The notes under the pieces: model-generated
Told to the model about the DNA's origin: nothing
The model's input: the letters and a program-made list of their open reading frames with translations, nothing else
The model's database searches: none
Assembly (NCBI RefSeq): GCF_018132105.1
Contig: NZ_JWHL01000002.1
Coordinates: forward strand, 1-64,000
Length of the DNA stretch: 64,000 nt
Direction of reading: 5' to 3'
DNA from: Methanocalculus chunghsingensis
GTDB taxonomy: Archaea > Halobacteriota > Methanomicrobia > Methanomicrobiales > Methanocorpusculaceae
Part shown: positions 18,757 through 47,955 of the stretch, piece by piece
Position numbering within the stretch: position 1 is the first letter of the stretch
Layout: every line of letters starts with the position of its first letter
Position numbers and translations under genes: made by a program

Positions 18757-18772
18757 ATGGGGGGTTATTCGG

Positions 18773-19539: not shown

Positions 19540-19672
19540 GATTTTCACCAATTCCTGACAATGAATTCGAAGAGAACTGGAAGGATTATGTAGAGCAGGA
19601 TATCCACAAGCTCTCTTCAGGAGCACAATTGTTCAGGCAGAAACTCATGTCCCTTATATCAGAGGGGATCTG
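19540..19672 (+). pseudogene. Truncated copy of the RHH-like antitoxin gene
   Basis: Encodes only the C-terminal part (NEFEENWKDYVEQDIHKLS, SGAQLFRQKLMSLISEGI) of the protein at 16685-17122, with nearly identical DNA. The RHH N-terminus and its promoter are missing. Confidence 0.8.
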
Positions 19673-21496: not shown

Positions 21497-21533
21497 GGTC
21501 ATCTCCTGTGATTTCTTGATAGTAGTATCTCTC

Positions 21534-26488: not shown

Positions 26489-27562
26489 TCACTCCATGTT
26501 AAGTTCATCTGTTCTTCTTCTCAAAAAACCCTGATAACATTTGATACAAAATGATGTCATAAGCCATACAATACATTCGACCAGAGGTTTAAGAGTCTCA
26601 TTGCCAATTCTTTTTTCATATTTTTTCATATTACCAGTTAAGTAAAGGTCAACAATCTCTTTATACCACCAAGTGGGATTTTCCAACCCATTGGTGGTGG
26701 AATCTGAGATTTGTAAGATATCCTTCCTAATATCTTCCTCTTCTCTTTCATATGCAACCTGCGAAGCAAAATTTTCATTAATTGTACATGCTATCATCGA
26801 ATATTCACACACCCTTTTTATTTCAATATTTACTGACTGACTCATACTCTGATCCGGTTTCCCAAAAGGAGGTTTGTGTTCAAACGGAAAATTCCCCAAT
26901 GAATATGCAATCAGATCCCCGTGATACTCTTCAATCCCCTGCAGTGCATCTGGATGGTGCCCAAGAATAACAGATGCTCCCTCATCAATAAGTCTGTGGC
27001 CAAGATCGATCTGATCCGGCGATGGATAAAGGACATGTTCAATTCCCCAGTGCAGCGATACAATAACATGGTCACAGGACTTCTTCGGCTGAGCAATATC
27101 TCTAAGAACCTCTCTTTCCTGTATCTTGTTGATTGCTATCTCCTTGGGCACTCTCCATCGCCCGGAAATATATCCAGGAAAACCCAGTTTGATATTATTC
27201 CGTTCGATGATCACCGGTCGGTTTTCATTTTTTGAATGACCACCACCGACATAGGATATCAGATTCTGTTCAAGGACATTCAGTATATCATGAAATCCCT
27301 CTACCCAGAGATCGAGAATCTGATTATTGGCAACATTGACGACATCAAAGCCTGGATCTTTGAGATAGCGTACCTTCTCTGGATCCTCATATAACACATG
27401 TGCCTTTTTCGCTCGCACAGGGCTTTGAGATAGAACCGTTTCCAGGTTTCCAAATACTATATTTCCCTCTGAGAGTGATTCTCGAACCATATAGAATGGG
27501 TCCGAGTTATCATTGGTTTTCAGCAAGATATCACCAACAGCTGTTAGGGTTATGGAGCTCAT
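26489..27562 (-). CDS. CapA-family (PGA_cap) metallophosphatase-like protein
   Basis: A 357-residue CapA-type protein: LTAVGDILL, FGNLETVLSQ, NVANNQILD, SLHWGIEH, GHHPDALQGI and YSLGNFPFEH match the calcineurin-like metal-binding pattern of the family. CapA takes part in poly-gamma-glutamate capsule formation in bacilli, but most homologues in glycan loci are uncharacterised. No signal peptide or clear N-terminal membrane anchor is visible, so a cytoplasmic location is possible. Start and upstream stop overlap by one base. No capB or capC is present, so polyglutamate synthesis is unlikely. Confidence 0.8.
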   Translation of the reverse strand: MSSITLTAVGDILLKTNDNSDPFYMVRESLSEGNIVFGNLETVLSQSPVRAKKAHVLYEDPEKVRYLKDPGFDVVNVANNQILDLWVEGFHDILNVLEQNLISYVGGGHSKNENRPVIIERNNIKLGFPGYISGRWRVPKEIAINKIQEREVLRDIAQPKKSCDHVIVSLHWGIEHVLYPSPDQIDLGHRLIDEGASVILGHHPDALQGIEEYHGDLIAYSLGNFPFEHKPPFGKPDQSMSQSVNIEIKRVCEYSMIACTINENFASQVAYEREEEDIRKDILQISDSTTNGLENPTWWYKEIVDLYLTGNMKKYEKRIGNETLKPLVECIVWLMTSFCIKCYQGFLRRRTDELNME

Positions 27563-28966: not shown

Positions 28967-31138
28967 TCAGATACCTGTCTCTCTCTCTATCGCTGTCATC
29001 CCGGGCTCATTCAGCCCAACCGGGATCGACACACCCTTCTCCACCGATTCCCATGCCTTAAACGTAAGCATTGTCGAGAACAATGACGGTAGAACATCAT
29101 CTCTCTCTCCACTGACAAACCTCTCCAGCTCCTCAAAGAACCCTTTATCCTGCGACAGCCACCGCTTTGTCTTCTTCTCCTTTCCATCCCTCACCAGCCG
29201 TAGCTCCCGGAAGTCGGTCAGGACGCCAACCGATCCATCGCAGAAGACCTCAACCTGCTCCTTGGAATACGCTTTGTCACCGAGTGTGGTATAGGTGATG
29301 GTTCCGATTGATCCATCATCCAGCGAGATAACGATCTGAAGATTGGAGAACCGGTTGATCGACCCCCCGGGCAGCACCGACTTTGCATACACCTCTATGG
29401 GCCGTGCGCCGGACAGACAGAGGATATAATCGATGAAGTGGCAGCATTCGGAGATGAGCATCCCGCCCCCCTGCTCAGCATCATTGACCCAGAGATCCGG
29501 GGGGATGGGACCGGCATTCACCCGGTAGTGGATAACCATCGGTGAGCTCCGCTCTTTGAAGAACTCTGTCAGCTGCATGGTGAGCGGGGAGTACCGCCGG
29601 TTAAACCCTACCTGCAGCTGTCCCCCGCACTCCTTCCAGACACTGGCGACCTTCTCAAGGTCTTCCATAGTGGTGGCAAGGGGCTTCTCAACAAAGACCC
29701 GCTTTCCTGCACGCATCGCCTCGATGGCCATCTCTGCATGGAGATCATTTCGTGTTGAGATGATCACCGCATCTGTCTTCTCATCCTGTAAAATTTCACG
29801 ATAATCAGTTGTGCAGTACTCAAATCCATATTTTTTTGCCACAGAGGTTCCGCTCAGGCCGGTTGCGGTCGCAAGACCGGTGAGTTGGACCGGTAATTTG
29901 GAGAAATGCGGGAAAAGTGCACTTAGAGCCTGGATGCCCGCCCCGATACAGCCGAGGCGAACCACGCCTTCAGCCGGAGCCTTCTTTTCGGCACCCTGAG
30001 CAATATGTACAACAGATGCAGACTTCCTTTCACTGTCTCCATCATATCTGAGGACAACACCGATGAACGGCTCTCTCCGCTTCTCGATGAGATCATAAGC
30101 AGAGACGGCATCATCACCTGAGAACTCATGGGTGATCAGGCGATCGAGGGTGATCTTTCCTTCTGCAAGAAGCCCAAGGAACGACTCCATATTTCGCCTC
30201 TCGGTCCAGCGGATTGCAATCGGATAGTCGATCCCCTTCTCTTCATACTGCCGATCATATCGCCCGGGACCATAGGATCTGGAGACGACAAACTCAGCTT
30301 CTTTATCATAGTACTTCTCACGGGGAAGCTCCATCCCGACCATGCCGACGGCAACGACCCTCCCCTGCTGCCGGACGAGATCACCGGCAAGCTCGACCGG
30401 ACCGTTTGACTTCGTCGCCGCTGTGATGATGACCGCATCGGCACCAAAGGGGGAGAACGCCTCCATCTTCCCGGTGAGATTATCATAATTCGTGGCAACA
30501 TCTGCTCCAAGATCGGTTGCCAGCGCAATCTTCTTCTGATCAACATCGATGGCGAAGACCCGACATCCCGCGGCCTTCAGAATCTGAACGGTCAGTAATC
30601 CAATCAGCCCGAGGCCGATCACAACGGTGGCGTCACCGACCTGGACCCGGGCGTTCCTGACCCCCTGCATCGCAATGGCACCGACGGTTGTGAAGCTGGC
30701 GTCGCGGAGGGAGACGGAATCCGGAACCCTGATACAGAGGTTCTTTGGGATGTAGTTCATCTCTGCATGATTTGCGTATCCTGCCCCGGCACATGCCACT
30801 CTGTCTCCGATTGAAAAATCGCTTACATTCGTCTGAGTGACAATCCCTGCACAACTGTAGCCGAGGGGCTCAGGCTTGGCAAGCCTGCTCATCGCCTGCT
30901 GGTACCCCGTAAGCACCCCATCCGTTTTCATCTTTGCAATCACTTTATTTGCAAGATCCGGTCGTTCACGGGCTTTACCGAGGAGTGATTTGCCGGCCAG
31001 GCTGAGGAGTGCGCCTTCGGTCCCTGCACTTATCAGGGAGTATGCAGTCTCGACCATGACACCATTCTTCAGTACCGGGAGGGGAACATCTTCTATACAC
31101 ACTTCACCATTCTGTAGATCCAGGAGCAACTGTTTCAT
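28967..31138 (-). CDS. Bi-domain oxidoreductase: Zn-type alcohol dehydrogenase + Gfo/Idh/MocA
   Basis: A 723-residue fusion. Residues 1 to about 365 form a medium-chain dehydrogenase (EPLGYSCAGIVTQ, VIGLGLIGLLTVQILKAAG). Residues from about 390 form a Gfo/Idh/MocA enzyme (LGCIGAGIQALSALF, then VFVEKPLATTMEDLEK, QVGFNRRYSP). Such two-domain proteins recur in bacterial and archaeal surface-glycan loci and are thought to act on a sugar in two redox steps, but the substrate is unknown. It overlaps the toroid gene by ATGA and is followed by CapK after four bases. Confidence 0.88.
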   Translation of the reverse strand: MKQLLLDLQNGEVCIEDVPLPVLKNGVMVETAYSLISAGTEGALLSLAGKSLLGKARERPDLANKVIAKMKTDGVLTGYQQAMSRLAKPEPLGYSCAGIVTQTNVSDFSIGDRVACAGAGYANHAEMNYIPKNLCIRVPDSVSLRDASFTTVGAIAMQGVRNARVQVGDATVVIGLGLIGLLTVQILKAAGCRVFAIDVDQKKIALATDLGADVATNYDNLTGKMEAFSPFGADAVIITAATKSNGPVELAGDLVRQQGRVVAVGMVGMELPREKYYDKEAEFVVSRSYGPGRYDRQYEEKGIDYPIAIRWTERRNMESFLGLLAEGKITLDRLITHEFSGDDAVSAYDLIEKRREPFIGVVLRYDGDSERKSASVVHIAQGAEKKAPAEGVVRLGCIGAGIQALSALFPHFSKLPVQLTGLATATGLSGTSVAKKYGFEYCTTDYREILQDEKTDAVIISTRNDLHAEMAIEAMRAGKRVFVEKPLATTMEDLEKVASVWKECGGQLQVGFNRRYSPLTMQLTEFFKERSSPMVIHYRVNAGPIPPDLWVNDAEQGGGMLISECCHFIDYILCLSGARPIEVYAKSVLPGGSINRFSNLQIVISLDDGSIGTITYTTLGDKAYSKEQVEVFCDGSVGVLTDFRELRLVRDGKEKKTKRWLSQDKGFFEELERFVSGERDDVLPSLFSTMLTFKAWESVEKGVSIPVGLNEPGMTAIERETGI

Positions 31139-32319
31139 TTATTTCCTCCATGTGATATTGTATAACTCAAACAATCCAGCACCTCTGATGTCATGAAGAG
31201 ATCCGGGTAATTATTTGATGCCTCGATCGTTGATGCTTTGATCCCAAGGAGAGAGCAGAGGATATGAAATACCGTCGGATCGACCTGATACGAAAACCTT
31301 CTCCTGGCAATCTCCCTGTACATTCCATATCCGATACGAAACACCTGTTCCTTCAGCGGAAAGTCACCAATCCTTGATGTTCTGAGGGAAGTTAGAGGGG
31401 ATAATGATCCCCATGATCCCCCTTCCCAGCGGAGCATGATCCCATTGATATTCTTTGTAAGCTCCTCTAATGAACCCTCTGCACTCTTCAGATATTTTGA
31501 ATCATGCTCTGCTGCATGCAGAAAAGAGGCGTATGCGAACGCCTGTGCCCCACTCAGGTAATAGGCAAACAGAAGACCGCTTGAAGACCAGTCAAAGGAT
31601 CCGTCATCCCGTTGTTGTGAGGCGAGCCAGTCTGCACCTTTCATCAGGCTGTCATTAATCCAATCTTTTCCCAGGACGGCGTTGATCTTTGCCAGATAAT
31701 ACATCGTCACTCCCTGATAGTGAATGCATGGGATATCAAGCGCATGGGGATAACTGCCCTTGTCACTGGTATAAGGGTACGATCCATCCTGAGCCTGGTA
31801 CTGGCATATCCGCTCTGCAGCCCGATGAGCTGCATCAAGGGATATCTGATCTGAAAAGAGGTTGCCATAAGCTGCGAGAAACGCTCCGCATGATGCATCA
31901 ACATTAAGATGATCGGCGGTATATTGGGCAGATTTCAGGAAGAGTCCCGGGGCTCTCTCCTGTGAAAGCACATACCCTCGTGCTCTCTTTAGTGATGCAT
32001 CCATACGTACATGATTATATGCCAGAATGAGAGCTTCCCCGATGAAAGAGGTGATCAATGCCGATGGCTGGTTATATTGAGGATGAATCTCATTCCAAGA
32101 ACCATCAGGGTTCTGATGGTCTGTAATATAACGGATTAATCCAGGGACATGATCCAGATCTCCCATCCGGATCAGTGTCTTGCAGATCTCAGCATTCACC
32201 CTGTTTCGAACAATATCAAAGATTGGATCGGTAAAGTATGCCTGGTCCTCCTGAATAACCAGATGTTTTTTTGTCTCATCCAGAAGCCCGGTAAGGACCT
32301 CCTCCACATCAACTGGCAT
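31135..32319 (-). CDS. Alpha/alpha-toroid (prenyltransferase/cyclase-like) protein
   Basis: A 394-residue protein with repeated helical hairpins and QDGS-type turns: HQNPDGSWNEIHPQY, YQAQDGSYPYTSDKG, ASQQRDDGSFDWSSSG. These repeats are typical of six-hairpin/terpenoid-cyclase toroids and related glycan-processing enzymes. No DxDD cyclase motif is seen, so terpene cyclisation is unsupported; a lyase or hydrolase of glycans is possible. Bi-domain oxidoreductases are often encoded beside heparinase-like toroid proteins, and this may be a distant counterpart. It overlaps the GT4 gene upstream by 11 bases and the oxidoreductase by four. Confidence 0.6.
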   Translation of the reverse strand: MPVDVEEVLTGLLDETKKHLVIQEDQAYFTDPIFDIVRNRVNAEICKTLIRMGDLDHVPGLIRYITDHQNPDGSWNEIHPQYNQPSALITSFIGEALILAYNHVRMDASLKRARGYVLSQERAPGLFLKSAQYTADHLNVDASCGAFLAAYGNLFSDQISLDAAHRAAERICQYQAQDGSYPYTSDKGSYPHALDIPCIHYQGVTMYYLAKINAVLGKDWINDSLMKGADWLASQQRDDGSFDWSSSGLLFAYYLSGAQAFAYASFLHAAEHDSKYLKSAEGSLEELTKNINGIMLRWEGGSWGSLSPLTSLRTSRIGDFPLKEQVFRIGYGMYREIARRRFSYQVDPTVFHILCSLLGIKASTIEASNNYPDLFMTSEVLDCLSYTISHGGNK

Positions 32320-33514
32320 CTGCCACCTCATCCAGGTATATCTTCAGCTTTCCTGCAATTGCCCTGCGGTCATAATGCTTCATAACGTATGCACGTCCGG
32401 ATTTTCCCATCTCCTCCATCTTCTGAGGATCATTGATCAGACCGAGGATCGCTTCAGCAATGGCTTGGGGTGTATTTTCTGCAATAACGCCGGCACCGGA
32501 ATCCTGCGCAATTGATTCTATCTCCCCTCTGCCACACCCAAGGAATGGAATGCCACATGCCATGTATTCATAGGCTTTTGTTGGTGCAGCATACTCAAGT
32601 GTTTCAAGATTTTTAAGTGGTGCAAGACCAATCCGGCTCTCAGAGAGGAGCGATGGAACCATCTCTCTCTCCACAAGCCCTGTGAACGAGACATAGTCGG
32701 TCAGCCCCTCCGTTTCGACCAGCTTCATCAGCTGACTTCTGATATCGCCATCACCAACGATACAAAGACCGATATCTCTCTTCCGGAGGATTATTTTCAG
32801 TGAAAGAATCACATTCTCCAGATCCTGTGCATGCCCGATATTTCCAGCATAGATTAACCGATCGATCTTCGATCCATTGGTTGGTTTAAAAAAACTGGTA
32901 TCAACGCCATTTGGGAGCCATCGAATCTTCTTCTGGATGGAAGGTTCGGGAGAGAGACGTCTCCCGAGTTCATCTGTTGTCACCATGATCCTGTCTGCTG
33001 ATTGCAGGGCATTATGTTCCAGTCCCCTGGATAATCGCTCATAGAGGCTTCCTCTCCGTAGGAAACCCAGGCTGATGGAGGCATCAATCCAGAGATCGCG
33101 GACCTCAACTATCCATGGTTTCCGAAATATCGTCTTTGCAAATTTTCCGGTGATATGGGTAAAGAGGGGGGGAGCTGAGGTGATAATCGCATCATAGGAT
33201 CGGGGATGTAGAGAGATCCAGAGCGTAGCATGAAGAGGAAAGAGGAGGTAGTATGCCATCCTGCTCAGGAAACCCGGATCATGTGATGATGGCTGCCATG
33301 TCCAGAGGTTAATCGATTGAATGCCGTCAACAGTTCTCTTTCGCGACAGTCGCCAGGTTTTGGGAAAAGACCCTGTGGGAAATGTCGGGTGGGGGGACAT
33401 CACAGTAACATCCACTCCCATATTCTGTAGATGAAATGCCATATCACGAATACGGGATGCGTTTCCTGACTTCTCAGGGGGAAAATGTTGCGATATGATT
33501 AGGACTCTCTTCAT
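32309..33514 (-). CDS. GT4-family glycosyltransferase
   Basis: A 401-residue GT-B enzyme. N-terminus VLIISQHFPPEKSGNASRI, middle WIVEVRDLWIDASISLGFL, and donor domain LIYAGNIGHAQDLENVI, LCIVGDGDIRSQL, AAPTKAYEYMACGIPFLG. It resembles WbuB-type transferases acting on N-acetyl-6-deoxy sugars or HexNAc. The start at 33514 follows a strong SD (GAGGAG). It lies 19 bases after the WecC stop, so it is likely in the same transcript. Confidence 0.86.
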   Translation of the reverse strand: MKRVLIISQHFPPEKSGNASRIRDMAFHLQNMGVDVTVMSPHPTFPTGSFPKTWRLSRKRTVDGIQSINLWTWQPSSHDPGFLSRMAYYLLFPLHATLWISLHPRSYDAIITSAPPLFTHITGKFAKTIFRKPWIVEVRDLWIDASISLGFLRRGSLYERLSRGLEHNALQSADRIMVTTDELGRRLSPEPSIQKKIRWLPNGVDTSFFKPTNGSKIDRLIYAGNIGHAQDLENVILSLKIILRKRDIGLCIVGDGDIRSQLMKLVETEGLTDYVSFTGLVEREMVPSLLSESRIGLAPLKNLETLEYAAPTKAYEYMACGIPFLGCGRGEIESIAQDSGAGVIAENTPQAIAEAILGLINDPQKMEEMGKSGRAYVMKHYDRRAIAGKLKIYLDEVADAS

Positions 33515-33533: not shown

Positions 33534-34829
33534 TCATGGTCGTTCTTCAGAGGATACTCTTTCGAGTAAGCTATGATCCAAAAACTGCTCCCTCCCATCT
33601 CCCATCAGTTTTACATAATATCCCGCACTCCTCCACCTCTGGTGATCGAGAAGATTTCGGGTATCAACGATATTTTTTCTCCTCATCAGAAGCGTTGCAG
33701 GATCAATCTCCTTAAACTGATCGTGATCTGTTATCAGGATGATGCAGTCACTCCCCTCCAGCGCTTCATGCATCGGGGAGAGGTCATATGCAAACTCTTT
33801 TACGAGTGGATCAAAACACTTCACCTGGTACCCTTCGTTAAGAGCAAGCTGGATGAATTTTAACGCCGGGGTTTCACGACAGTCATCAATATTCCCTTTA
33901 TAGCTCACACCAAAGACCGTGATAACAGGCTCCCTGACACCCTTTAGGATGGAACGAACATGCTGGATGACATAGTTTGGCATTGTCTCATTGATGTCCC
34001 GTGAAAGCTGAATCATACCGGTATTCGTTGAGTTCTCTGTAAGGAACCAGGGGTCAACTGCGATACAATGACCCCCGACACCCGGACCTGGCTTGAGAAG
34101 ATTGACACGGGGGTGCCTGTTTGCAAGCTCGGTCACATCCCAGATATTAATCCCATAATCTTCTGCGATCTGGGCCAGTTCGTTGGCCAGGGCGATATTC
34201 ACATCCCGGAAGGTGTTCTCAACAAGTTTCACAAATTCAGCAGTTTTGGCATCCGTTGTGTAGATCTTCCCCCGAACATATGATGAATAGATCTTCTCTG
34301 CCGCAATAATCGACTCTTGTGTGACTCCTCCGATTATTCGGTCATTGTACATCATCTCATGAAGGGTATTCCCGGGAATTGCACGCTCAGGGCAGTGTGC
34401 GTACAGGAATTCTCCTGCCTTGAGGCCACTCTTTTCAAGGATGGGGATGATGACCCGCTCGCTGGCTCTTGGGGGTACTGTCGATTCAAGGATCACCAGA
34501 TTCCCCTTTTTCAGGTGGGGGAAGATCATCGTGGCTGCTGATCGGACATACCTGAGATCAGAGATTCGAAGATGCGTATCAAGGGGGGTTGGGACGGCAA
34601 TAAGGTAGACATCTGCTTCAGGTACCGTTCCCTGTGCAGAAAAGCGCGATCTTCCCTCCTCGAAAAGTTCGTTAAGGCCCGGCTCCATGATATGGGGAAC
34701 TCCACTATTCAGGCTATCGAGAACTTTTTGATTGATATCTACACCAATTACAATATGGCCGTTTGCTGCTAACAGAAGGGAGGTTGGAAATCCGATGTAT
34801 CCAAGTCCGAGTACGCATATTGTTGCCAT
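33534..34829 (-). CDS. wecC: UDP-N-acetyl-D-mannosamine dehydrogenase
   Basis: A 431-residue dehydrogenase converting UDP-ManNAc to UDP-ManNAcA. Motifs: CVLGLGYIGFPTSLLLA (NAD), ESTVPPRAS, HCPERAIPGNT and the catalytic Cys in PGPGVGGHCIAVDPWFL, the WecC signature. Normal length. The upstream gene (after a 165-bp promoter gap) is the matching 2-epimerase. It is paralogous to the less canonical enzyme at 20.0 kb. Promoter: TATA-like TTAATATATA at 34871-34880, about 45 bases before the ATG. Confidence 0.93.
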   Translation of the reverse strand: MATICVLGLGYIGFPTSLLLAANGHIVIGVDINQKVLDSLNSGVPHIMEPGLNELFEEGRSRFSAQGTVPEADVYLIAVPTPLDTHLRISDLRYVRSAATMIFPHLKKGNLVILESTVPPRASERVIIPILEKSGLKAGEFLYAHCPERAIPGNTLHEMMYNDRIIGGVTQESIIAAEKIYSSYVRGKIYTTDAKTAEFVKLVENTFRDVNIALANELAQIAEDYGINIWDVTELANRHPRVNLLKPGPGVGGHCIAVDPWFLTENSTNTGMIQLSRDINETMPNYVIQHVRSILKGVREPVITVFGVSYKGNIDDCRETPALKFIQLALNEGYQVKCFDPLVKEFAYDLSPMHEALEGSDCIILITDHDQFKEIDPATLLMRRKNIVDTRNLLDHQRWRSAGYYVKLMGDGREQFLDHSLLERVSSEERP

Positions 34830-34870
34830 AACAAATCACCATCAATTTTAATATTATAATTATACCATTT

Positions 34871-34880
34871 TATATATTAA
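34871..34880 (-). promoter_or_regulatory. TATA-like box for the wecC-GT4-toroid-oxidoreductase-CapK-CapA-GT4 operon
   Basis: The minus strand reads TTAATATATA, followed by AAATGG, about 45 bases upstream of the wecC ATG. The seven genes that follow are spaced from overlaps to 19 bases, so one promoter could drive them all. Confidence 0.5.
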
Positions 34881-34994
34881 TTTTTGTAATTTTTATAAAT
34901 AATTAAATTTTTTGAAGGTACCCACTTTCTGATTTACGTACAAATGGTATTAATGAATATCCTGAAAATTTGAATAATACTCATGGCCAGCTAC

Positions 34995-36086
34995 CTAATG
35001 ATTGGCATTACGGGGTGGAAGGCCGTTACATAACGTAATAATTGTCTTCCCTGCCCTCCCATCTCCATATGGATTTGACCATGTAGCTGTACGAGAAATC
35101 ATCTCACGAGATGATGAGAGAATTTTGTCCCTGTCAGTACCTGCGAGCATATTTGCTCCAACCCTTATGGTCTCCGGCCTTTCAGTGTTCTCACGCAGGG
35201 TGACACATGGCACGCCAAGAATACAACTCTCCTCCTGAACGCCCCCTGAGTCGGTCAGGACCAGACGGGCCTTTGACTCAAGCTGGAGGAAGTCGAGGAA
35301 GCCAACAGGTGGCATAACGATGGTTCCCTCCAGTGACATTTTGAATTGCTGAATCATCTTCTGTGTTCGTGGATGCATGGGGAAGATGACTGGAAATGAT
35401 AATTCATTGTGAATATTTTCAAAAGCATTAATTATATTTCGAAGCTTTTCATAGGAATCGACATTCTCCTGGCGATGCGAGGTTGCAAGGAAGAATTCTT
35501 TTGGTTTCACTCCTATATCATCTAAAACTTTTGACCGTGTCTGGGATATTTTCTGGTTCTGGAGGATTGCATCAACGATGGTATTTCCGGTTAAACATAT
35601 CTTTCTCTCTTCGATCCCTTCATTCAGAAGGTATTGACGTGCCGTCTCAGTAGGGGCAAAGAGATAGTCGGATATATGATCTGTAACAACCCGGTTAATC
35701 TCCTCGGGCATTGTTCGGTCAAAACTCCGAAGTCCCGCCTCCACGTGCCCAACTCGTATGTTTAATTTCGAAGCGGCAAGTGCACCTGCAAGCACAGTAT
35801 TTGTATCACCCTGTACAAGAACCGTATCTGGCTGTTCATCGATCAGTATCTTCTCAATACCTGTCATTATCCGACATGTCTGATCGGCATGACTAGCCGA
35901 GCCAACATCCAGATTAAAGTGTGGTTCGGGCAGTTCAAGTTCTTCAAAGAAGTTCCTGTCCATTTCATATGAGTAATGCTGCCCGGTATGAAGGATGAAA
36001 TAGTCAAGGCCCTTCCGCTCACATTCCCTTATAACCGGAGACATCTTAATTATCTCCGGCCGGGTTCCAAGAATTATCCCTATCAT
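34995..36086 (-). CDS. wecB: UDP-N-acetylglucosamine 2-epimerase (non-hydrolysing)
   Basis: A 363-residue epimerase making UDP-ManNAc from UDP-GlcNAc. N-terminus IGIILGTRPEIIKMSPVI, then HTGQHYSYEMDRNFFEEL, HVEAGLRSFDRTMPEE, TDSGGVQEES and TLRENTERPETI are classical WecB/MnaA features. The start at 36086 follows the perfect SD GGAGGTG. It lies directly after the GT2 gene, and WecC is encoded next, so UDP-ManNAcA is the likely product. Confidence 0.93.
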   Translation of the reverse strand: MIGIILGTRPEIIKMSPVIRECERKGLDYFILHTGQHYSYEMDRNFFEELELPEPHFNLDVGSASHADQTCRIMTGIEKILIDEQPDTVLVQGDTNTVLAGALAASKLNIRVGHVEAGLRSFDRTMPEEINRVVTDHISDYLFAPTETARQYLLNEGIEERKICLTGNTIVDAILQNQKISQTRSKVLDDIGVKPKEFFLATSHRQENVDSYEKLRNIINAFENIHNELSFPVIFPMHPRTQKMIQQFKMSLEGTIVMPPVGFLDFLQLESKARLVLTDSGGVQEESCILGVPCVTLRENTERPETIRVGANMLAGTDRDKILSSSREMISRTATWSNPYGDGRAGKTIITLCNGLPPRNANH

Positions 36087-36087
36087 T

Positions 36088-37176
36088 TCAGACACCTCCT
36101 CTCTTATTTCCATCTTTCATGAGGATAACAAGTGAATTCAATATCAGGCCACACACGAGTAATAACAATCCCAGTGTCAGCAATGCTATGCCCCCGGTAA
36201 ATAAAATGTAATTAAATTGCCCAATCCCGACAAACGTTGAGAATGTATAGATCTCCATAAGAAAACCAACAGTGAAGAAAGCAAAACCCGGAACCCCAAA
36301 TGATAACAGCGGGCGACGGTATCCAATCATCCCGACCAGTCTGGTAAAGACTCCGAGTCCATGAGCCAGTGGGTTCATCTTATGCTTATGGGGGACATCA
36401 TACCTCACATGAATAGGAACTTCAGTAATTTTCAATTTGCAATCCGAGAAGTGTGACAGCATATCAGATTCAAGATTATAACCTTCAGAGCTGAAAGTGA
36501 GGTGATCAAGAGCATATTTATTGAGTGCACGGAAACCCGATTGTGAGTCAGTGGTTTTGAAGTTGCAGGTAGCATTCGTAAATCCATTGAGAATCTTCTG
36601 GCCTGCAATCCGATAGGTCGGTATCTTGGCCTCGATATTGAGGAATCGCGATCCGATGACAACGTCAGCCTCTCCAGATAACACTGGTGCAGACACGGCC
36701 GGAATATCATGAGGATTGTGCTGCCCATCACCATCGAACATCACAACCACCGAGTAGCCGAGCATCTTTGCCCGCTTAAATCCCGCCATCATTGCATGAG
36801 CCTTACCGACATTCTCTGGCATATCAACCACCTCAGCACCAGAAAGTCGGGCTATTTCAGCTGTCTCATCGGTTGATCCATCGTTGATGACTATAACATG
36901 GTCAACATATTTTCGCGTCTGAAGCACAACGCTTCCGATTACAAGTGATTCATTAAATGCCGGAATTAGAGCGGCTATTTGTTCATTGGATTGAACGGGA
37001 TATTTCGCTTCGTCGGAGTTTTTCGGATTTTTTTGGTTAATTGATATAGTCCGGGATTTTCCGGTCGTAGCTTCCCATTGTTTAAAATATATGGATGAAT
37101 AGTCACGAAACCTGGATCGACTCTCTCCACCACTTCTTCGTTGGATTTTTCCTGCTGGTTGAACCATCTGTATCAC
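36088..37176 (-). CDS. GT2 glycosyltransferase with C-terminal membrane anchor (DPM1/AglJ-like)
   Basis: A 362-residue protein. After a basic, poorly conserved N-terminal tail of about 65 residues comes a GT-A domain: AALIPAFNESLVIGSVV, VINDGSTDETAE, VMFDGDGQHNP (DxD-type metal site) and SQSGFRALNKYAL. Two hydrophobic segments (FGVPGFAFFTVGFLMEI; GGIALLTLGLLLLVCGLIL) anchor it. The family transfers sugars to dolichyl phosphate, so it may initiate or extend the lipid-linked glycan. A start further downstream is possible given the odd N-terminus. Confidence 0.8.
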   Translation of the reverse strand: MIQMVQPAGKIQRRSGGESRSRFRDYSSIYFKQWEATTGKSRTISINQKNPKNSDEAKYPVQSNEQIAALIPAFNESLVIGSVVLQTRKYVDHVIVINDGSTDETAEIARLSGAEVVDMPENVGKAHAMMAGFKRAKMLGYSVVVMFDGDGQHNPHDIPAVSAPVLSGEADVVIGSRFLNIEAKIPTYRIAGQKILNGFTNATCNFKTTDSQSGFRALNKYALDHLTFSSEGYNLESDMLSHFSDCKLKITEVPIHVRYDVPHKHKMNPLAHGLGVFTRLVGMIGYRRPLLSFGVPGFAFFTVGFLMEIYTFSTFVGIGQFNYILFTGGIALLTLGLLLLVCGLILNSLVILMKDGNKRGGV

Positions 37177-37899: not shown

Positions 37900-39342
37900 A
37901 TGTCACGGTTCATCACCAATGTATTGAAGCTCTTATCTGGGAGTGTCCTTGCCCAGATACTGGGTATTTTACTCATCCCTATAATAACCAGATTATATTC
38001 TCCCGGGGATTATGGTGTTTTTCAGCTATTTATATCAATATCCAGCATCATTGCAGTTATGTCCTGTCTATCCTATCAACTGGCAATTGTTTTACCCAAA
38101 AAAGATGAAGATTCGGTTAATATTATTGCTTTGTGTTTTGTTCTTATCCTTGGAACCTCACTTATTACCGGGGTTGTATTCATCCTCTTCTCCGATTTCG
38201 TTGGAAATATGCTAAAAACTCCTGTTCTCTCTCAGTACCTCGTTTTTTTACCTATTGTTATTTTATTAAATGGCATTTTTTTAGTTTTGAATAATTGGAT
38301 GATACGAAGAACCCAGTTTTCCGGTGTCGCGACTGCTCAGGTGACTAATTCATTCATAACCAAACTAGTTCAGATTGGTGCCGGAATCAATGCTGTTTCT
38401 GCTTTTGGATTGATCGCCGGACATATCGCCGGCCTTTTAGCTGCTCTATTTATAATGGCTCGCCAGATGCTAGTAGACTCTTCGTTACTATTGAAATACA
38501 GTCTCTCTGAAATGAAAGAAATGGCTATCAGATATAAGAGATTCCCTCTTTTTACGACATGGGCAACTCTGGCCAATACCCTCTCCACCAGGGTTGCCCC
38601 TCTTTTGTTAGCTATATTCTTTGGTCCGACGATAGTTGGACACTATGCTATTGCTTTCATGGTTATTGGCATGCCTATGGGTCTTATTGGAACTGCCGCA
38701 TCCCAGGTCTTCTTCCAGAAAATATCTGAAGTTAAGAACCTATCAGGGAATTTTAAGGTCACTGTGGAGCAGATGCATAAACGACTGATTTCGATTGGTA
38801 TATTTCCTTTTTTGGTTGTAATGATTATTGGAGAAGAGCTTTTTGCATTTATGCTTGGGGCTGAATGGTCTGTAGCGGGACAATATGCCCAGATTCTCGC
38901 ACCTTGGATATTTCTCGTTTTTATTAGTGCACCACTCTCCACTGTTTTACTTGTACTGGAAAAACAGACTGTTTCTTTAGCTTTCAATCTGGTAATCCTT
39001 GTATCACGTATTATCATTCTCCTGGTAGGGGGTTTATTTTTCAATCCAATAGTAACTCTGATACTGTTCTCAATAACTGGAGTGCTATTTATCGGATTTA
39101 TGAACTTTTATACACTTTCGATATCTGGTGTATGCTATATTGAAACTTTAAAGGATCTTTTCACATATTTGGCACTTGCTTTTGTTATCGCCTCCCCTAT
39201 AATTATAATAAAAATTTTCATAGTCAATATTTTCATTATATTTTTAATAACTGGAGTAATTATGTTAACATATTATGTGGTTGTAATTTATATGGATCCA
39301 TTGTTAAAAAAAGAAATAGGACTCATTCTCAAGAGAAAATAA
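37900..39342 (+). CDS. Oligosaccharide flippase (Wzx-like)
   Basis: A 480-residue polytopic membrane protein with 12-14 predicted hydrophobic helices. The N-terminus VLKLLSGSVLAQILGILLIP, followed by ITRLYSPGDYGVFQLFISI, is the classical polysaccharide-transporter pattern. It would flip lipid-linked oligosaccharide to the outside. It is the only plus-strand gene of the glycan locus and stands alone between divergent and convergent minus-strand operons. It differs in sequence from the flippase at 9.6 kb, suggesting a second glycan or a replaced exporter. Confidence 0.9.
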   Translation: MSRFITNVLKLLSGSVLAQILGILLIPIITRLYSPGDYGVFQLFISISSIIAVMSCLSYQLAIVLPKKDEDSVNIIALCFVLILGTSLITGVVFILFSDFVGNMLKTPVLSQYLVFLPIVILLNGIFLVLNNWMIRRTQFSGVATAQVTNSFITKLVQIGAGINAVSAFGLIAGHIAGLLAALFIMARQMLVDSSLLLKYSLSEMKEMAIRYKRFPLFTTWATLANTLSTRVAPLLLAIFFGPTIVGHYAIAFMVIGMPMGLIGTAASQVFFQKISEVKNLSGNFKVTVEQMHKRLISIGIFPFLVVMIIGEELFAFMLGAEWSVAGQYAQILAPWIFLVFISAPLSTVLLVLEKQTVSLAFNLVILVSRIIILLVGGLFFNPIVTLILFSITGVLFIGFMNFYTLSISGVCYIETLKDLFTYLALAFVIASPIIIIKIFIVNIFIIFLITGVIMLTYYVVVIYMDPLLKKEIGLILKRK

Positions 39343-39406: not shown

Positions 39407-41143
39407 TTATTTTCCTTCTAACAATTTCAAAGCACGAATAAGTGTCAATACCTGTGCTTTTTCAAAAATGGTTCCATTTTCAAATAAAACATGAACATCC
39501 TGAGAAAGAGCGGGGTACATCTTAATTGTGTATATATCCCGCTCATAACTCGCGCCCATCCCTTCCCGAAGTTTAGGATTGGTACTCCCCCAGTATTGAG
39601 CAGGATTCATACTATAATTGCTTCTCGTGTTTAAACGTCTCATTAAAGCCCTTCCAAGTCCATATTTGTTTAAAATAAACATCGGATATTTTGGGGGAAG
39701 GCCATACTTTTCCCATGGATACTCTGAAAATTCTGGAATATATTTATTTATCAGTTTTAAATATAGATTCCCATCGTATCGTCTCTTCGGGTCAATCCTC
39801 ATCAAATAATCTATGAAGTCAATGTAAAGGAATGGAGATGCATATTCGGTAAACTGTTCGATGGCTCGAAATCCATTAAATATACAATTAATATCTCTGT
39901 GGTAAAAAGAAAAAATTTCTTCGTTCTCATATTTTTCCCGTATATCATATTTATAAAAATTTATATTTTTTAGGAGTTTTTTAGAATATGCTATATGGTT
40001 TAATGACCCTTCTGTTATTTCACGGTGGACTTCCTTTGTAAGATGTACCCCTTTGAGATATGCTCCCGAGATTCCTGTATGAATAAGCCCATAATTCTGA
40101 AACGATAATTTTTTTAGAACATTATATAGATGTGCTGACCCTGCGTAAAAAATTTGACCACTATTTGATGCAATGATCTCATCAACATTCTCAATAAGAT
40201 AGTTGCCATGATCCAGAGAGAAAAAGAGATACTCCAAACCTTTTTCCGAGCATATCTGCTTGGCAATACGATCATCATCATAATCACTTTGCGAGAAGCA
40301 AAAGCAGAGTATGGGATCAAAACCAAGCTTTTTTGCGTATCCTACATTTGTTCGTGAATCAAGTCCGCCACTCAGGGTTGCAATATGCAGATAATTATAC
40401 TCCTGATCCTTTCTGTACTCCATTCGAATGGCTTCTGAGAATCTGCGGTCAAGCTCTGCCAGAATAGTGTCATCATCCTCATCAATATATGGAGTACTTT
40501 TGATCCTATAATATTCCATTAAAGAGATAGTGCCATTTTTAAAATTGAGAACATTGCCTGGTGGAAGTTTGTGAATCTCCTGAAAGAGCGTTGTATTCTC
40601 AAGCATGTATCCGAGGGAGAGAAGACTGTATGCCCCGTCCTGGTCAATGGTCAGGGGTAAGCCGAGATATCTCATTCCATATATAATAGGGGCAATCTCC
40701 GACCCAAATAGAAGGGTTCCTGATGCATTATCAAAGGAATAGTACACCGGTTTTGATGCGATATGATCAGTAAATAAAAGAAGAGTATTCTCCTTTTCAT
40801 TATGTATATAGCCTGAGAAATTTCCTCGAAGCTGATTGACAAATTGCCAACCATACTTTTTCTCCATCAGATTAATAAGATCTCCATAGGACTGTGCATT
40901 ATATTTATGGAGTAAATCCTGGAGATTAAACGTAATTCCATCTACACAAATAAGCTTCCCTTCCTTTTTAGAGAAGGTTTTGTCATTTGAGAATTTATCA
41001 AGAGAACACCGGCCGAAGAGACCGTGTGCATAGGAACTGCAATCTATTAAGTACGATACTTCTTTGATTTGTTGCATCTTCTGCCCAATATTTGGGTTAT
41101 CCCGTGACGAATTCTCTGATATTACCCCCCATATTCCTGGCAT
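39407..41143 (-). CDS. Asparagine-synthase-like protein, copy A (no glutaminase Cys)
   Basis: A 578-residue protein with an N-terminal Ntn-type domain (residues 1 to about 190) and a C-terminal ATP-pyrophosphatase synthase domain. The PP-loop is ATLSGGLDSRTNVGYAKKLG. The N-terminus is MPGIWGV, so the catalytic Cys2 of class II amidotransferases is replaced by Pro. Glutamine hydrolysis at that site should be impossible, and free ammonia or another amine would be needed. In glycan loci AsnB-like enzymes can amidate uronic acids. A strong TATA-like box (TTTATATATT, 41191-41200) precedes it. Copy B lies 282 bases upstream in tandem. Confidence 0.85.
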   Translation of the reverse strand: MPGIWGVISENSSRDNPNIGQKMQQIKEVSYLIDCSSYAHGLFGRCSLDKFSNDKTFSKKEGKLICVDGITFNLQDLLHKYNAQSYGDLINLMEKKYGWQFVNQLRGNFSGYIHNEKENTLLLFTDHIASKPVYYSFDNASGTLLFGSEIAPIIYGMRYLGLPLTIDQDGAYSLLSLGYMLENTTLFQEIHKLPPGNVLNFKNGTISLMEYYRIKSTPYIDEDDDTILAELDRRFSEAIRMEYRKDQEYNYLHIATLSGGLDSRTNVGYAKKLGFDPILCFCFSQSDYDDDRIAKQICSEKGLEYLFFSLDHGNYLIENVDEIIASNSGQIFYAGSAHLYNVLKKLSFQNYGLIHTGISGAYLKGVHLTKEVHREITEGSLNHIAYSKKLLKNINFYKYDIREKYENEEIFSFYHRDINCIFNGFRAIEQFTEYASPFLYIDFIDYLMRIDPKRRYDGNLYLKLINKYIPEFSEYPWEKYGLPPKYPMFILNKYGLGRALMRRLNTRSNYSMNPAQYWGSTNPKLREGMGASYERDIYTIKMYPALSQDVHVLFENGTIFEKAQVLTLIRALKLLEGK

Positions 41144-41190
41144 ACTGTTACCCCGTAATTAATTTTTTAATTTTTAAATTAATAAATCAA

Positions 41191-41200
41191 AATATATAAA
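41191..41200 (-). promoter_or_regulatory. TATA-like box of AsnB-like copy A
   Basis: TTTATATATT on the minus strand, about 50 bases upstream of the ATG. The same sequence and flanks recur before copy B (43211-43220), so the promoter was duplicated with the gene. Confidence 0.55.
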
Positions 41201-41284
41201 GTATCGTTTTTTTATGGGTTTAGAAACTTTTCTCAACATCCCCATCCGCATGTCCTCTTTCACAAATAGTATTTATCATACTCT

Positions 41285-41412
41285 TTCCCGTCTCAACCAC
41301 AGTTTCTCATCCACTGTCGCTTGTGTGGAAAGGGATCTGCTTTGAAGATGATACCACAATGTCCAGTTGACATTTGCTCAGGAATCAGGAAGTTTGGCGA
41401 TCAGAAATATGG
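41285..41412 (+). repeat. Dispersed 130-bp repeat, copy 1
   Basis: Shares CAGTTTCTCAT, GCTTGTGTGGAAAGGGAT, TTGCTCAGGAATCAGG and TTGGCGATCAGAAAT with the minus strand of 48137-48275. A weak common reading frame (LNHSFSSTVACVERD here; LNYSFSFSVSCVERD there) suggests both are scraps of one lost gene or element. It lies between the two AsnB-like genes. Confidence 0.65.
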
Positions 41413-41425
41413 AGAAGAGTCAAAA

Positions 41426-43162
41426 TTATTTTCCTTCTAATAACTCCAAACCACGAATAAGTGTCAATACCTGTGTTTTCTCAATGAACGTCCCATTTTC
41501 AAATAGAGTATGAACATCCTGAGACAGGGGGGGGTACATATCAATTATCGATATATCCTGCTCATAACTTGCTACAATTGCGTCTCGAAGTTTTGGATTG
41601 TTATCCCACCAGTATTGAGCCGGATTCATACTATTATTGCATCCAGTATTGAAGCGTCTCATTAACGCCCTTCCCATTCTATAATTATTTAAAATAAGCT
41701 TTGGATATTTTGGGGCGAGACCATACCTTTCCCATGGGTACTCTGAAAATTCAGGAATATATCGGTTTATCCAATTTAAATATAGATTCTCACCGTATCG
41801 TCTCTTCGGGTTGATTCTCATCACGTAATCCAGAAAATCATGATAGAGAAATGGGGATGCGTATTCGGTAAATTGTTCGATTGCTCTAAATCCATTCCAT
41901 ACACAGTTTATCGCTCTCTGATAAAACATAAATATTTCATCATTTTCATTTAATTCATTTATTTCTTTATACGATATGTTAACTTTTCCAAGGAGAGTCT
42001 TTGAATATGTGATATGATTAAGCGATTCTTCATTTATTTCTCCATGGAAGCCATGTGAGAGGCTTGTTCCTTTTAGGGGCTCCCCTGCGATTCCGGTATG
42101 GACAAGCCCATAATTCTTAAACGATATTTTTTTTAGAACATTATACAGATGTGCAGATCCCGCGTAAAAAATTTGGCCACTATTTGATCCAATGATCTCA
42201 TCAATATTCTCAAGAAGATAGTTACCATGATCCAGAGAGAAAAAGAGATACTCCAAACCTTTTTCCGAGCATATCCGCTTGGCAATACGATCATCATCAT
42301 AATCACTTTGCGAGAAGCAAAAGCAGAGGATGGAATCAAAACCAAGTTTCTTGGCATATCCTACATTTGTTCGTGAATCAAGTCCACCACTCAGGGTTGC
42401 AATATGCTGATAATTATATTCCAGGTCCTTTCTGTACTCCATTCGAATGGCTTCTCTGAATCTGCAGTCAAGCTCTGCCAGAATAGTGTCATCATCCTCG
42501 TCGATATATGGAGTGCTTTTGATCCGATAATATTCCATTAAAGAGATAGTACCATTTTTAAAATTGAGAACATTGCCTGGTGGGAGCTTGTGAATCTCCT
42601 GAAAGAGGGTGGTGTCCTCAAGCATATATCCAAGGGAGAGAAGACTGTATGCCCCGTCTTGATCAACGGTGACGGATAAGCCCATTTTTTTCATACCATA
42701 AATAATAGGGGCAATCTCAGATCCAAATAGAAGGGTTCCGGATGCTTTATCAAAGGAATAGTACACCGGTTTTGATGCGATATGATCGGTAAATAGAAGA
42801 AGAGTATTCTCCGTTTCATTATGTATATAGCCCGAGAAATTTCCTCGGAGCCGATTGACAAATTGCCAACCATACTTTTTCTCCATCAGATTAATAAGAT
42901 CTCCATAGGACTGTGCATTATATTTATGGAGTAAATCCTGGAGATTAAACGTAATTCCATCTACACAAATAAGCTTCCCTTCCTTATTAGAGAAGGTTTT
43001 GTCATTTGAGAATTTATCAAGAGAACACCGGCCGAAGAGACCGTGTGCATAGGAACTGCAATCTATTAAGTACGATACTTCTTTGATTTTTTGCATCTTC
43101 TGCCCAATATTTGGGTAATCCCGTGACGAATTCTCTGATATAACTCCCCATATTCCTGGCAT
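41426..43162 (-). CDS. Asparagine-synthase-like protein, copy B (no glutaminase Cys)
   Basis: A 578-residue tandem paralogue of copy A with the same MPGIWGV start (no Cys2) and the same ATLSGGLDSRTNVGYAKK PP-loop. The first 190 and middle residues are almost identical. Differences cluster around residues 355-410 (GIAGEPLKGTSLSHGFHGEI versus GISGAYLKGVHLTKEVHREI) and near the C-terminus. This suggests diversification of substrate recognition after a recent duplication. The promoter is duplicated as well (43211-43220). Confidence 0.85.
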   Translation of the reverse strand: MPGIWGVISENSSRDYPNIGQKMQKIKEVSYLIDCSSYAHGLFGRCSLDKFSNDKTFSNKEGKLICVDGITFNLQDLLHKYNAQSYGDLINLMEKKYGWQFVNRLRGNFSGYIHNETENTLLLFTDHIASKPVYYSFDKASGTLLFGSEIAPIIYGMKKMGLSVTVDQDGAYSLLSLGYMLEDTTLFQEIHKLPPGNVLNFKNGTISLMEYYRIKSTPYIDEDDDTILAELDCRFREAIRMEYRKDLEYNYQHIATLSGGLDSRTNVGYAKKLGFDSILCFCFSQSDYDDDRIAKRICSEKGLEYLFFSLDHGNYLLENIDEIIGSNSGQIFYAGSAHLYNVLKKISFKNYGLVHTGIAGEPLKGTSLSHGFHGEINEESLNHITYSKTLLGKVNISYKEINELNENDEIFMFYQRAINCVWNGFRAIEQFTEYASPFLYHDFLDYVMRINPKRRYGENLYLNWINRYIPEFSEYPWERYGLAPKYPKLILNNYRMGRALMRRFNTGCNNSMNPAQYWWDNNPKLRDAIVASYEQDISIIDMYPPLSQDVHTLFENGTFIEKTQVLTLIRGLELLEGK

Positions 43163-43315
43163 ATTGTTACCCCCGTAATTAATTTTTTAATTTTTAAATT
43201 AATAAATTAAAATATATAAAGTATCGCATTTTTATGTGTTGAGGTGAGAACCTTTTCCTGACATCCTCCATCCCTTTGAAAAATACGTAGTGTCACGTCA
43301 AACTTCAAACGTCGT

Positions 43316-44429
43316 TTAAAGGCGAGATAGCTTCACTCGTGCATCCTCAGTAGTGAATTGCCAGTTTATCCGACTATCTTTGTTATTTCGGGATTCTTCC
43401 CACGCTTTAACCTCTCTCCGGACAACCTCAATACTATCCATCCTACGGTCAAGGCACTGACTGGTCAGAACGCTCAGCTCTATTTCTGTTATATTTAGCC
43501 AACTTTCATGTTTTGGCGTATAGACAAACTCAAACTGATTCCAGAGACTCTTGGCCAGTTCGGGAGCGAAGGTCTCATAAAGTGATCCAGGTCCCTGCGT
43601 ATTCAGATTATCCATAACCAGAGTAATTGTATCTGCATCTTCATATTGGGCAGCAATATCACGCAGAAATTCGGCACAATCCTGCTTGGTTTTTCGATGA
43701 GTTATTTTTACCAATCGTTTCCCGGCAAGAGGTTCACATGCGATGAAAATATTACATGTGCCACAACGGCGGTACTCATAATCATGTCTTGCGGGATATC
43801 CTGGTGTACAGGGTATTGAGTCTCGAGTTTCAGGAATGAGTTGTTTTGGGGATTCATCCATGCAAACAACTGGATGTTGTGGATCGAAGGGTCGCTTATG
43901 CACATCCAGAACCCGTTCCATCTGAGCAACGAAATTAATGTTCTGGTTAGGAGGTATTACCCACGCCTGATTTCGCCATGGTTTGAGCTCGTTTTTTTAA
44001 AACCTGACGAACGGCTTCATGAGATATTGTGTCAACGTACTCGAGTTCAACCATTTTATCTGCCAGCAATCGAAGTGACCACCGAGAGTAGCCCTCTGGC
44101 GGTTCACTGCAACTCAGGGCAATTAATCTGGCTTCGAAATCACCGTCGGTCTTTTTGTCATAGATCCTATCTGATTTTTTCTTTGTCAGTGCCTCATCAA
44201 GACCTTCCAGAACAAATCTGCTTTTCACACGGTCGATTTTTCTCATACTGATATTCAAAACGCGAGATATTTCTTCATTTGTTGAACGCTGTGCCTGATG
44301 CTCGCCCTCATCACATGCAAGAAGGATGAGGGCATTCAGAACTGCTTGAGATGAATGTTTACCTTTAGAGGAGAGGGCTTCAAGGGTATCACGTTCTTCC
44401 TTGGTGAGAGTCACAACATATTTTCTCAT
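43316..44429 (-). pseudogene. IS630-family transposase in two frames
   Basis: The upstream part (43947-44429, 160 residues) has paired HTH motifs: STNEEISRVLNISMRKIDRV and LSLRLLADKMVEL-type helices. The downstream part (43316-43921, 201 residues) has the DDE domain: VVCMDESPKQL, TLVMDNLNTQGP and LNITEIELSVL. They are joined by a +1 shift at a run of seven A residues near 43996-44002 (VLKK then ELKPWRNQAWVIPPNQNINF). Either programmed frameshifting, known in some IS630 members, or a decay mutation explains it. Terminal repeats were not resolved. Confidence 0.8.
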
Positions 44430-46522: not shown

Positions 46523-46660
46523 TCAACTACCCCGCCCTAAACGGCGGGGCTTGCAATACCAGTCATACGACTGATAGTGCAATTTAATCTGCACGAAGGT
46601 TGCTCGTAGTTGAGCCTTATTCGTACCGGCCGGTTGACACGGCCGCTACTGATTATCGGC
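46523..46660 (-). ncRNA. Probable omegaRNA (reRNA) of the tnpB element
   Basis: In TnpB systems the guide RNA derives from the 3' end of tnpB and the element's right end. Here the tnpB stop codon lies in the loop of the right-end hairpin (GCCCCGCCGTTTAGGGCGGGG region). The element then ends near TTGAC at 46523-46527, so the host-derived guide would read from 46522 downwards (GCTTGTAAGTATATGG). The 5' boundary is a guess. Confidence 0.45.
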
Positions 46661-47955
46661 GTAATACCCGAATCACCAGCTACTTTTCTCAAATGGTTGA
46701 GCGCACCATTTACATCCGCATTGATCACGGTACCGGAGCTGCTCTGATACAGTCCCCGCGTAATACGACGGGTTCGTCCATACCATGGTTTCTCGATCGG
46801 ATCACGTGCCAGGGCATCAACCTGCGAGGTATACCGTTCATCATGGGAATCGTCATACTGTATCCCGACGAGCTCGCATTTGGATCGCAGTTTCTGTCGA
46901 AACTTCGCATAGGGGATCTGGACGAAATTCTGGTTGTTTATCGCACCATGATTGATCTGGTGTTTGATCCCATCCCATCGCGGCACAATAATGGTGCCGA
47001 TTCCATGCTCACAGGCAAACGCGATCAGATAGGCGACAATCCGGTTCATCGCTTCGTTGATCCGGTTATCCCGCCTGATGAGGAGCCGGGACTGACTGTG
47101 TGTGAAATCCTTTGTTAAACCCTGTTTATCTTTAATCGATTGTAATCTGGCGTTTTCTTTGTTATACCACCGGTTAATTGATTTCAGATACATACCATCG
47201 ATAATCGAGGCAGTCCCGGTAGCAGTCTCAACGATCGTCGCAAAATTGTTGACGCCGAGATCGATCGCAAGATAATGGTCAGGATGGAAAAATATTGGTT
47301 GTACGGAAACAGTATACGCACATTCGATCTTGTATACCTTCCCGTTATGGACTGGAACAATAGTCACTTCACGGATCCGGTTTGGCTGGATGTGTGGCGG
47401 AATTTTGAAGGTCAGTTCTTTCCCGGTTAAACCATGCTGTTTTTTAAACATTCGTGCCATGCCGAGGGTGACATTGCCGTTTCGGATCGTGATATGTGAC
47501 GCAGGAAAAGCCAGTTTGTACCGGCCATCCTTCTCCAGATAGCGTGGAAGACGTGGTCGGTGTGGGAGTTCGCCGGAGTGGTACATCCGCATCAGTGCAA
47601 AATACGAGCTGTACGCTTCTTCAACACTTCTGAGGGTCTGCTGCGCAACATCACTATGGAGCAGCGGATAGTTCTCATTCTGACGGGACCGGGCATAATT
47701 TGAGATATCTTTGTATGGAAAGTCTTTCTTCCGGGTATAGGGGAGAAAGGAACCGACACAGGTGGTGACCTTTGATGCAATATCCGGTCGAATCGTCTGG
47801 AGAACCGAAATGTTTTCGCAATATTCAAAGTAATGCTGCCGGGTATTGTACAATGCAACATTGTACAGATTCTTTGCATGGTATGCGAGCGTGTCAATAA
47901 TATAATGCTGTCGTTGGGACAGGCGCATATAATTTGACACGGTTCGAATAACCAT
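46537..47955 (-). CDS. tnpB: TnpB-family RNA-guided nuclease, variant RuvC-II
   Basis: A 472-residue TnpB. Ruv[15 protein letters not shown] (catalytic Asp near residue 231). Ruv[18 protein letters not shown] (Asp). The canonical RuvC-II Glu (IVxEDL) is absent: the segment reads [15 protein letters not shown]. Instead a Glu occurs later in [12 protein letters not shown], and the usual Cys4 zinc finger is missing. This fits a known TnpB lineage with a relocated catalytic Glu ([13 protein letters not shown] is typical of it). The frame is intact, so it may still be an active guide-directed nuclease. Confidence 0.88.

Follow-up and report, generated by a model that had tools for sequence, protein, structure and literature searches.

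The asparagine synthetase (AsnB) fold is also found in beta-lactam synthetase and carbapenam synthetase, which act intramolecularly on amino acids of secondary metabolism and have no working glutaminase. In a surface-glycan locus of Tannerella forsythia that contains wecB, wecC and wzx, an AsnB-like protein of 605 aa, Tanf_01265, has been described, with a function that is predicted only (PMC6120980). Here we analyse a stretch of 64,000 nucleotides of the archaeon Methanocalculus chunghsingensis (the window: positions 1 to 64,000 of contig NZ_JWHL01000002.1), where two tandem genes encode the AsnB-like proteins P0001 and P0002. We define a grouping, the Cys-less SGGLDSR class, by the lack of Cys2 and the presence of Arg after SGGLDS, and both copies fit it; judged from their residues, they belong to a coherent and so far uncharacterised class of the AsnB/beta-lactam-synthetase fold. 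The main new finding is that genes of this class are paired with genes of Wzx-type flippases. The original prediction, in which the two proteins were ammonia- or amine-dependent ligases modifying glycan carboxylates, was half right, and it left out the breadth of the family, the rebuilt synthetase site (the added Arg and the loss of Glu352) and the association with flippases.

Pairing with Wzx-type flippase genes

The flippases were counted with the Pfam models PF13440 and PF01943 in the 22 genomes in which members of the family or near relatives occur, and the distances between the genes were measured. These models on matched genomes replaced an initial scan that was circular because it used the flippases of the same loci as queries. 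Of the 23 family loci, 16 have a flippase domain within 800 bp, whereas none of the 15 canonical AsnB genes in these genomes has one (kinship ignored, Fisher p=2e-5). In the literature, no relevant link between AsnB and flippases was found.

In Bacteroidota the flippase gene comes first and the AsnB-like gene second. The two mostly touch or overlap within one operon, and a glycosyltransferase-like gene often stands ahead of them, while some of the pairs lie among housekeeping genes and not in glycan clusters, with the gene names being read from the sequences. The pairing is also seen in more distant SGGLDSR clades (L008, L031, L066, L068 and L078). In genome G348, which is of the same phylum as the host, a WecB-like gene, a WecC-like gene, a flippase gene and a related gene with the MPG start stand together with apparent homologues of two more window genes (locus L137). 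The cluster around P0001 and P0002 likewise includes WecB- and WecC-type genes, homologues of the enzymes of the route to UDP-N-acetylmannosaminuronic acid (UDP-ManNAcA), so that the glycan context anticipated for the pair is borne out.

Glutaminase site, synthetase site and predicted fold

It had been claimed that both copies carry Pro in place of the catalytic Cys2 and thus cannot hydrolyse glutamine by the class II mechanism, while the PP-loop SGGLDSR stays intact, and these claims stand. The N-termini of P0001 and P0002 are alike (MPGIWGVISENSSRD). The in-frame open stretch ahead of the ATG has only 5 codons in P0001 and 8 codons in P0002, with neither a further start codon nor a Cys among them, which rules out an alternative Cys-bearing N-terminus and implies that Pro is the genuine residue 2. 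Chance or a sequencing artefact as the origin of the MPGIWG start is also ruled out, by relatives that start alike in other genomes.

The residues were compared in an alignment of the 87 AsnB-like proteins gathered here, 46 with Cys and 41 without, the counts referring to related sequences and not to independent events. The numbering and the roles of the residues are those of E. coli AsnB, which we take to be established. Part of the glutaminase-side residue set is also named in PMC11615228. Asn74, Glu76, Asp98, Asp351, Glu352 and Lys449 are all present in 46/46 proteins with Cys. At the sites of Asn74, Glu76 and Asp98 both P0001 and P0002 have Asp, Ile and Tyr, so the loss extends beyond Cys alone to the whole glutamine pocket.

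Two alternatives concern the glutaminase side. The first is that ammonia is supplied in trans by a separate glutaminase protein, with the ligase being functionally still a glutamine-dependent amidotransferase. Split amidotransferases do exist in general, and the Ntn (N-terminal nucleophile) fold is retained in the prediction described below; however, inspection of the loci, by reading of open reading frames (ORFs) and selected Pfam scans only, showed no glutaminase gene beside the family genes, and we consider such a supply improbable. The second is that the N-terminal Pro, exposed by removal of Met, is itself catalytic in the Ntn site. This would give a reason for Pro2-Gly3 being fixed in the archaeal members and recurring in a second clade that partly keeps the pocket (Glu76 and Asp98 in L066/L068), but relatives in the clade of the archaeal members carry Ala, Ser or Tyr in its place and the remaining pocket is lost, making a catalytic Pro hardly credible. 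That second clade, composed of L066 and L068 (G348 and G422) and L067 (G263), has an MPGL start and has lost Cys and Asn74. The clade retains Glu76 and Asp98 and is perhaps an intermediate state; a flippase gene directly adjoins two of its three genes.

On the synthetase side, the PP-loop SGGLDS lies at residues 258-263 in both copies, followed by Arg264 instead of Ser. An Arg after SGGxDS is present in 39/41 Cys-less proteins versus 0/46 proteins with Cys, while the Ser, Gly, Gly and Asp of the loop are retained in essentially all family members. The only two exceptions among the Cys-less proteins, L035 and L124, which have Ser-Ser, are ordinary AsnB proteins in the Cys clade with an MSGI start (Ser for Cys) and a canonical SGGxDSS, which would represent a separate and simpler route to the loss of Cys. 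In a tree made by a quick method and left unrooted, a branch with a Shimodaira-Hasegawa-like approximate likelihood-ratio (SH-aLRT) support of 100 parts all Cys proteins together with L035 and L124 from all SGGLDSR proteins included.

The pair Asp351-Glu352, which is Asp-Glu in 46/46 Cys proteins, has become Glu-Pro in P0002 and Ala-Tyr in P0001. Glu352 is lost in 38/41 Cys-less proteins, and the usual GEGSDE signature is replaced by HTGxxG[DE] in the family. For the Lys449 site the alignment, which is uncertain here, gives Gly, with a conserved WE[KR] motif within two residues, so a Lys or Arg may have been shifted rather than lost. With Glu352 lost and Arg added, chemistry other than plain amidation is possible: on the same fold, a carbonyl other than that of a carboxylate could be activated, or the transfer could be to an alcohol or other nucleophile, on a glycan precursor. 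Such versatility is known among PP-loop ATP pyrophosphatases, namely GMP synthetase, argininosuccinate synthetase and LarE (review PMC6594144), and the replaced signature would fit it. Nevertheless, the closest folds all activate carboxylates, making amides or hydroxamates, and uronate-forming genes are present in the window cluster, so that we think a change of chemistry unlikely.

A further alternative is that the protein has no ligase activity and instead binds the flippase or regulates it, as the tight pairing of the genes, the dead glutaminase site and the absence of the metal-site acid from P0001 could indicate. Yet the nucleotide-binding loop and the Asp351 site (36 of the 41 Cys-less proteins have Asp and 3 have Glu) are kept across very diverged members, which would be needless in a non-catalytic protein; a purely non-catalytic partner is distinctly unlikely. 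It is very improbable, finally, that P0001 and P0002 are ammonia-dependent asparagine synthetases. Their fold is the same as that of AsnB, but Glu352 is lost, their TIGR01536 scores are 82.9 and 85.7 bits against a cut-off of 267 bits, and they lie in a glycan/flippase context. Moreover, an ordinary AsnB with an MCGI start (L003) is encoded on another contig of the host genome, making it unlikely that the two copies serve as the asparagine synthetases of the host.

The structure was predicted by AlphaFold with eight family members, with a predicted local distance difference test score (pLDDT) of 82.6 and a predicted template-modelling score (pTM) of 0.87. The Foldseek and VIA-align matches are TsnB9 (Z 28.9), E. 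coli AsnB (26.7), human ASNS (26.6), beta-lactam synthetase (26.5) and carbapenam synthetase (24.9), a ranking of known relatives only, in which the absence of other families is uninformative. The matches extend over 429-502 residues and both domains, the alignments to AsnB starting at model residue 2 versus chain residue 1. The model thus predicts that the full AsnB/beta-lactam-synthetase fold is kept. As with beta-lactam synthetase, this includes the Ntn domain, which has lost its catalytic residues, and the analogy to that enzyme proposed before is upheld at the level of the predicted fold.

Two diverging copies, their distribution and the rest of the window

P0001 and P0002, of equal length, are 84% identical without gaps (Table 1). 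It had been noted that their differences cluster near residues 355-410 and suggested that this reflects two different specificities. The cluster is real, with 26/94 amino-acid differences versus 9.1 expected (binomial p=6e-7), but synonymous change clusters equally. The DNA identity is 97-99% in codons 1-100 and 61% in codons 351-400, where the synonymous divergence (dS) is about 2.4, near saturation. Because this synonymous peak coincides with residues 355-410, the cluster alone is no evidence of diversification at the amino-acid level, and two specificities are thus only possible; the region is also among the less conserved parts of the family. The simplest reading of the sequences would be a mosaic, in which an old duplication was homogenised in its 5' part by gene conversion and residues 355-410 are a stretch that conversion missed. 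Over the whole length the nonsynonymous divergence (dN) of 0.092 is far below the dS of 0.41, indicating that the pair is under purifying selection.

P0001 has Ala361 at the metal-site position of Asp351, being the only protein in the set with Ala where the family has Asp/Glu, and Leu464 versus the Trp464 of P0002 and 17/17 other members. P0002 is probably the more typical enzyme, and P0001 is probably an old paralogue that conversion has homogenised in part and whose activity would be altered or reduced. A faster decay of P0001 was considered and rejected, the outgroup state being retained about equally by P0001 (15, 17 and 14) and P0002 (12, 12 and 15).

Each copy is preceded by its own AT-rich leader, some 73 bp long and containing TTTATATA and GGGG, and the matching leaders suggest that the duplication took the promoter along. 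Matches to sigma-70-type promoters occur at shuffle level only, with the sigma-70 consensus being uninformative for an archaeal host. Just upstream of P0002 there is an IS630-type transposase in two pieces (43316-43921 and 43947-44429), which fits a mobile or recombining neighbourhood.

Table 1. Coordinates of the two AsnB-like genes and of other features in the window
Feature	Position	Strand	Remarks
P0002, Cys-less AsnB-like, upstream copy	41426..43162	-	578 aa, MPGIWG; SGGLDSR at 258-264; Glu361, Trp464
P0001, Cys-less AsnB-like, downstream copy	39407..41143	-	578 aa, MPGIWG; SGGLDSR intact; Ala361, Leu464
P0002 leader, AT-rich	43163..43236	-	nearly the same as the P0001 leader (alignment)
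P0001 leader, AT-rich	41144..41216	-	TTTATATA stretch and GGGG ahead of ATG; nearly the same as the P0002 leader (alignment)
Wzx-type flippase	37900..39342	+	PF13440/PF01943; convergent with P0001, 64 bp intergenic
WecB-type UDP-GlcNAc 2-epimerase	34995..36113	-	TIGR00236 above cut-off; possible source of UDP-ManNAc
Nucleotide-sugar dehydrogenase, nearest UDP-ManNAc dehydrogenase (WecC-type)	33534..34829	-	TIGR03026 above cut-off; possible source of uronate
HicAB-like	11971-12541		by eye
Nucleotidyltransferase/HEPN-like	15105-15973		by eye
RelE-like	17592-17909, 18466-18756		by eye
VapBC-like	18773-19626		by eye

A search for the Cys-less family elsewhere, as had been proposed, found relatives in 6/232 genomes of the order, with a broken copy (TAG, split frames) in one case, as well as in Bacteroidota, in one metagenome-assembled genome (MAG) labelled Deltaproteobacteria and in one unplaced bacterial MAG. 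The relatives were found by an alignment-based scan, a single-sequence scan of the genome contigs having given none. The host genome (2.13 Mb, 51 contigs) shares the family with the Methanocorpusculaceae MAG UBA425, which is of a different genus, and the seven other genomes of its own genus hold no full-length member, G006 having more distant SGGLDSR proteins. Residue 2 of the relatives is never Cys; it is Pro in the archaeal members and two Bacteroidota proteins, for one of which a TTG start is inferred, and Ala, Ser or Tyr in the other bacteria. One archaeal member reads ATG CGT TTG CCG with GGAGGT 7 bases ahead of the TTG, which suggests a TTG start that would again give MPGIWG. No NCBIfam model reaches its cut-off for the family proteins, the plasmid-borne relatives are distant matches only, none spanning 80% of the query, and PADLOC gave 0 hits for a link of the family to defence systems. 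In G067 the family member (L027/L055) is broken by frame changes and TAG and adjoins an intact-looking flippase gene; the AsnB-like gene is dispensable there.

Some other features of the window are as follows. Two separate pairs of a WecB-like and a nucleotide-sugar-dehydrogenase-like gene are present, at 20015-22607 and 33534-36113, the former where the G+C content is clearly raised (59% versus 37-46% nearby); for the dehydrogenase of the latter the UDP-ManNAc dehydrogenase models score below their own cut-offs. The cluster of the AsnB-like genes also encodes, at 26489-27562, a CapA/PGA_cap-type protein (PF09587) that weakly matches the lasso-peptide epimerase MslH. The ORF at 31135-32331 has weak terpenoid-cyclase-type matches and adjoins a two-domain alcohol-dehydrogenase/Gfo-Idh protein (28967-31138), and what looks like a similar pair is found close to the flippase/MPG gene of G348 (L137, 15712-18999). 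A region of about 9 kb (10988-19626) has no long genes and, by eye, many small toxin-antitoxin-like ORFs. More mobile-element genes by appearance, an IstA/IstB-like pair, a transposase fragment and a TnpB-like ORF, are at 411-2485, 8750-9388 and 46537-47955.

Proposed function and comparison with known systems

We propose, with about even confidence, that the proteins are ATP-dependent, glutamine-independent ligases that modify a carboxylate of a cytoplasmic glycan, the product being exported by the adjacent flippase. MgATP would bind at the PP-loop, and a carboxylate on a cytoplasmic glycan intermediate, which may be a lipid-linked oligosaccharide or a nucleotide sugar, e.g., a ManNAcA-type uronate, would be adenylated. 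Free ammonia or an amine would then attack the adenylate, with glutamine not being used and AMP being released, after which the neighbouring Wzx would flip the modified product. As in beta-lactam synthetase, the dead Ntn domain would be retained for a structural role or for binding of the substrate. The enzymes would thus probably decorate surface sugars ahead of their export.

This proposal is supported by the predicted fold, the intact PP-loop with Arg264, the loss of the glutaminase, the purifying selection between the copies, the pairing with flippases, the WecB/WecC genes and the separate AsnB. Several points weigh against it. There are 7 of the 23 family loci without an adjacent flippase gene, the p value of 2e-5 takes the loci as unrelated, and some of the flippase/AsnB-like pairs (L136 and L138) lie outside sugar clusters with no evident uronate genes there. 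Note also that Glu352, which is invariant in canonical AsnB, is lost, that the equivalent of Lys449 is not clearly placed, and that the adenylation, the nucleophile, the substrate and the order relative to flipping are steps that we infer.

More tentatively, and with considerable doubt on our part, the SGGLDSR class could be a flippase-dedicated ligase. Each enzyme would install an amide-linked group recognised by its neighbouring Wzx, a modification that would license the glycan for export in archaea as in bacteria, with the Arg taking over pyrophosphate binding. If the proposed function is true, genes named only 'asparagine synthase-related' would become a defined class that has a sequence marker of its own (no Cys2, SGGLDSR) and for which Wzx is the predicted partner. 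It would suggest substrates to test for the tailoring of surface glycans in archaea and Bacteroidota, would bear on the choice of cargo by flippases, and would show once more, in parallel to beta-lactam synthetase, how the AsnB fold can abandon glutamine but keep the nucleotide-binding loop.

Compared with E. coli AsnB (1ct9; TIGR01536), the copies are alike in the two-domain fold (457 residues aligned), the PP-loop SGGLDS and the acid at the Asp351 site (not in P0001). They are unlike it in lacking Cys1, Asn74, Glu76, Asp98 and Glu352, in the Arg after the PP-loop and in scoring far under the TIGR01536 cut-off. TsnB9 (7ylz), a hydroxyamidotransferase, is the best structural match (502 residues) as well as the best single-sequence match in the PDB; unlike that of P0001 and P0002, its PP-loop is SGGLDSS, the canonical form. 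It acts in hydroxamate biosynthesis and not beside a flippase. A protein of a Haloprofundus plasmid (hit H3), for which 'asparagine synthase-related protein' is a name only, matches 71% of P0002 at 21% identity.

Like Tanf_01265 of Tannerella forsythia, the AsnB-like genes here share a surface-glycan locus with wecB-, wecC- and wzx-type genes. With beta-lactam synthetase (1jgt and 1m1z) and the carbapenam synthetase CarA (1q15), the copies share an AsnB fold that keeps the PP-loop. The identity is 11-14%, no PDB match of the copies to beta-lactam synthetase was obtained at the sequence level, and the context here is one of surface glycans and a flippase, unlike that of those enzymes with their intramolecular reactions. 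The loss of Cys is the same evolutionary step in the beta-lactam and carbapenam synthetases and in P0001 and P0002.

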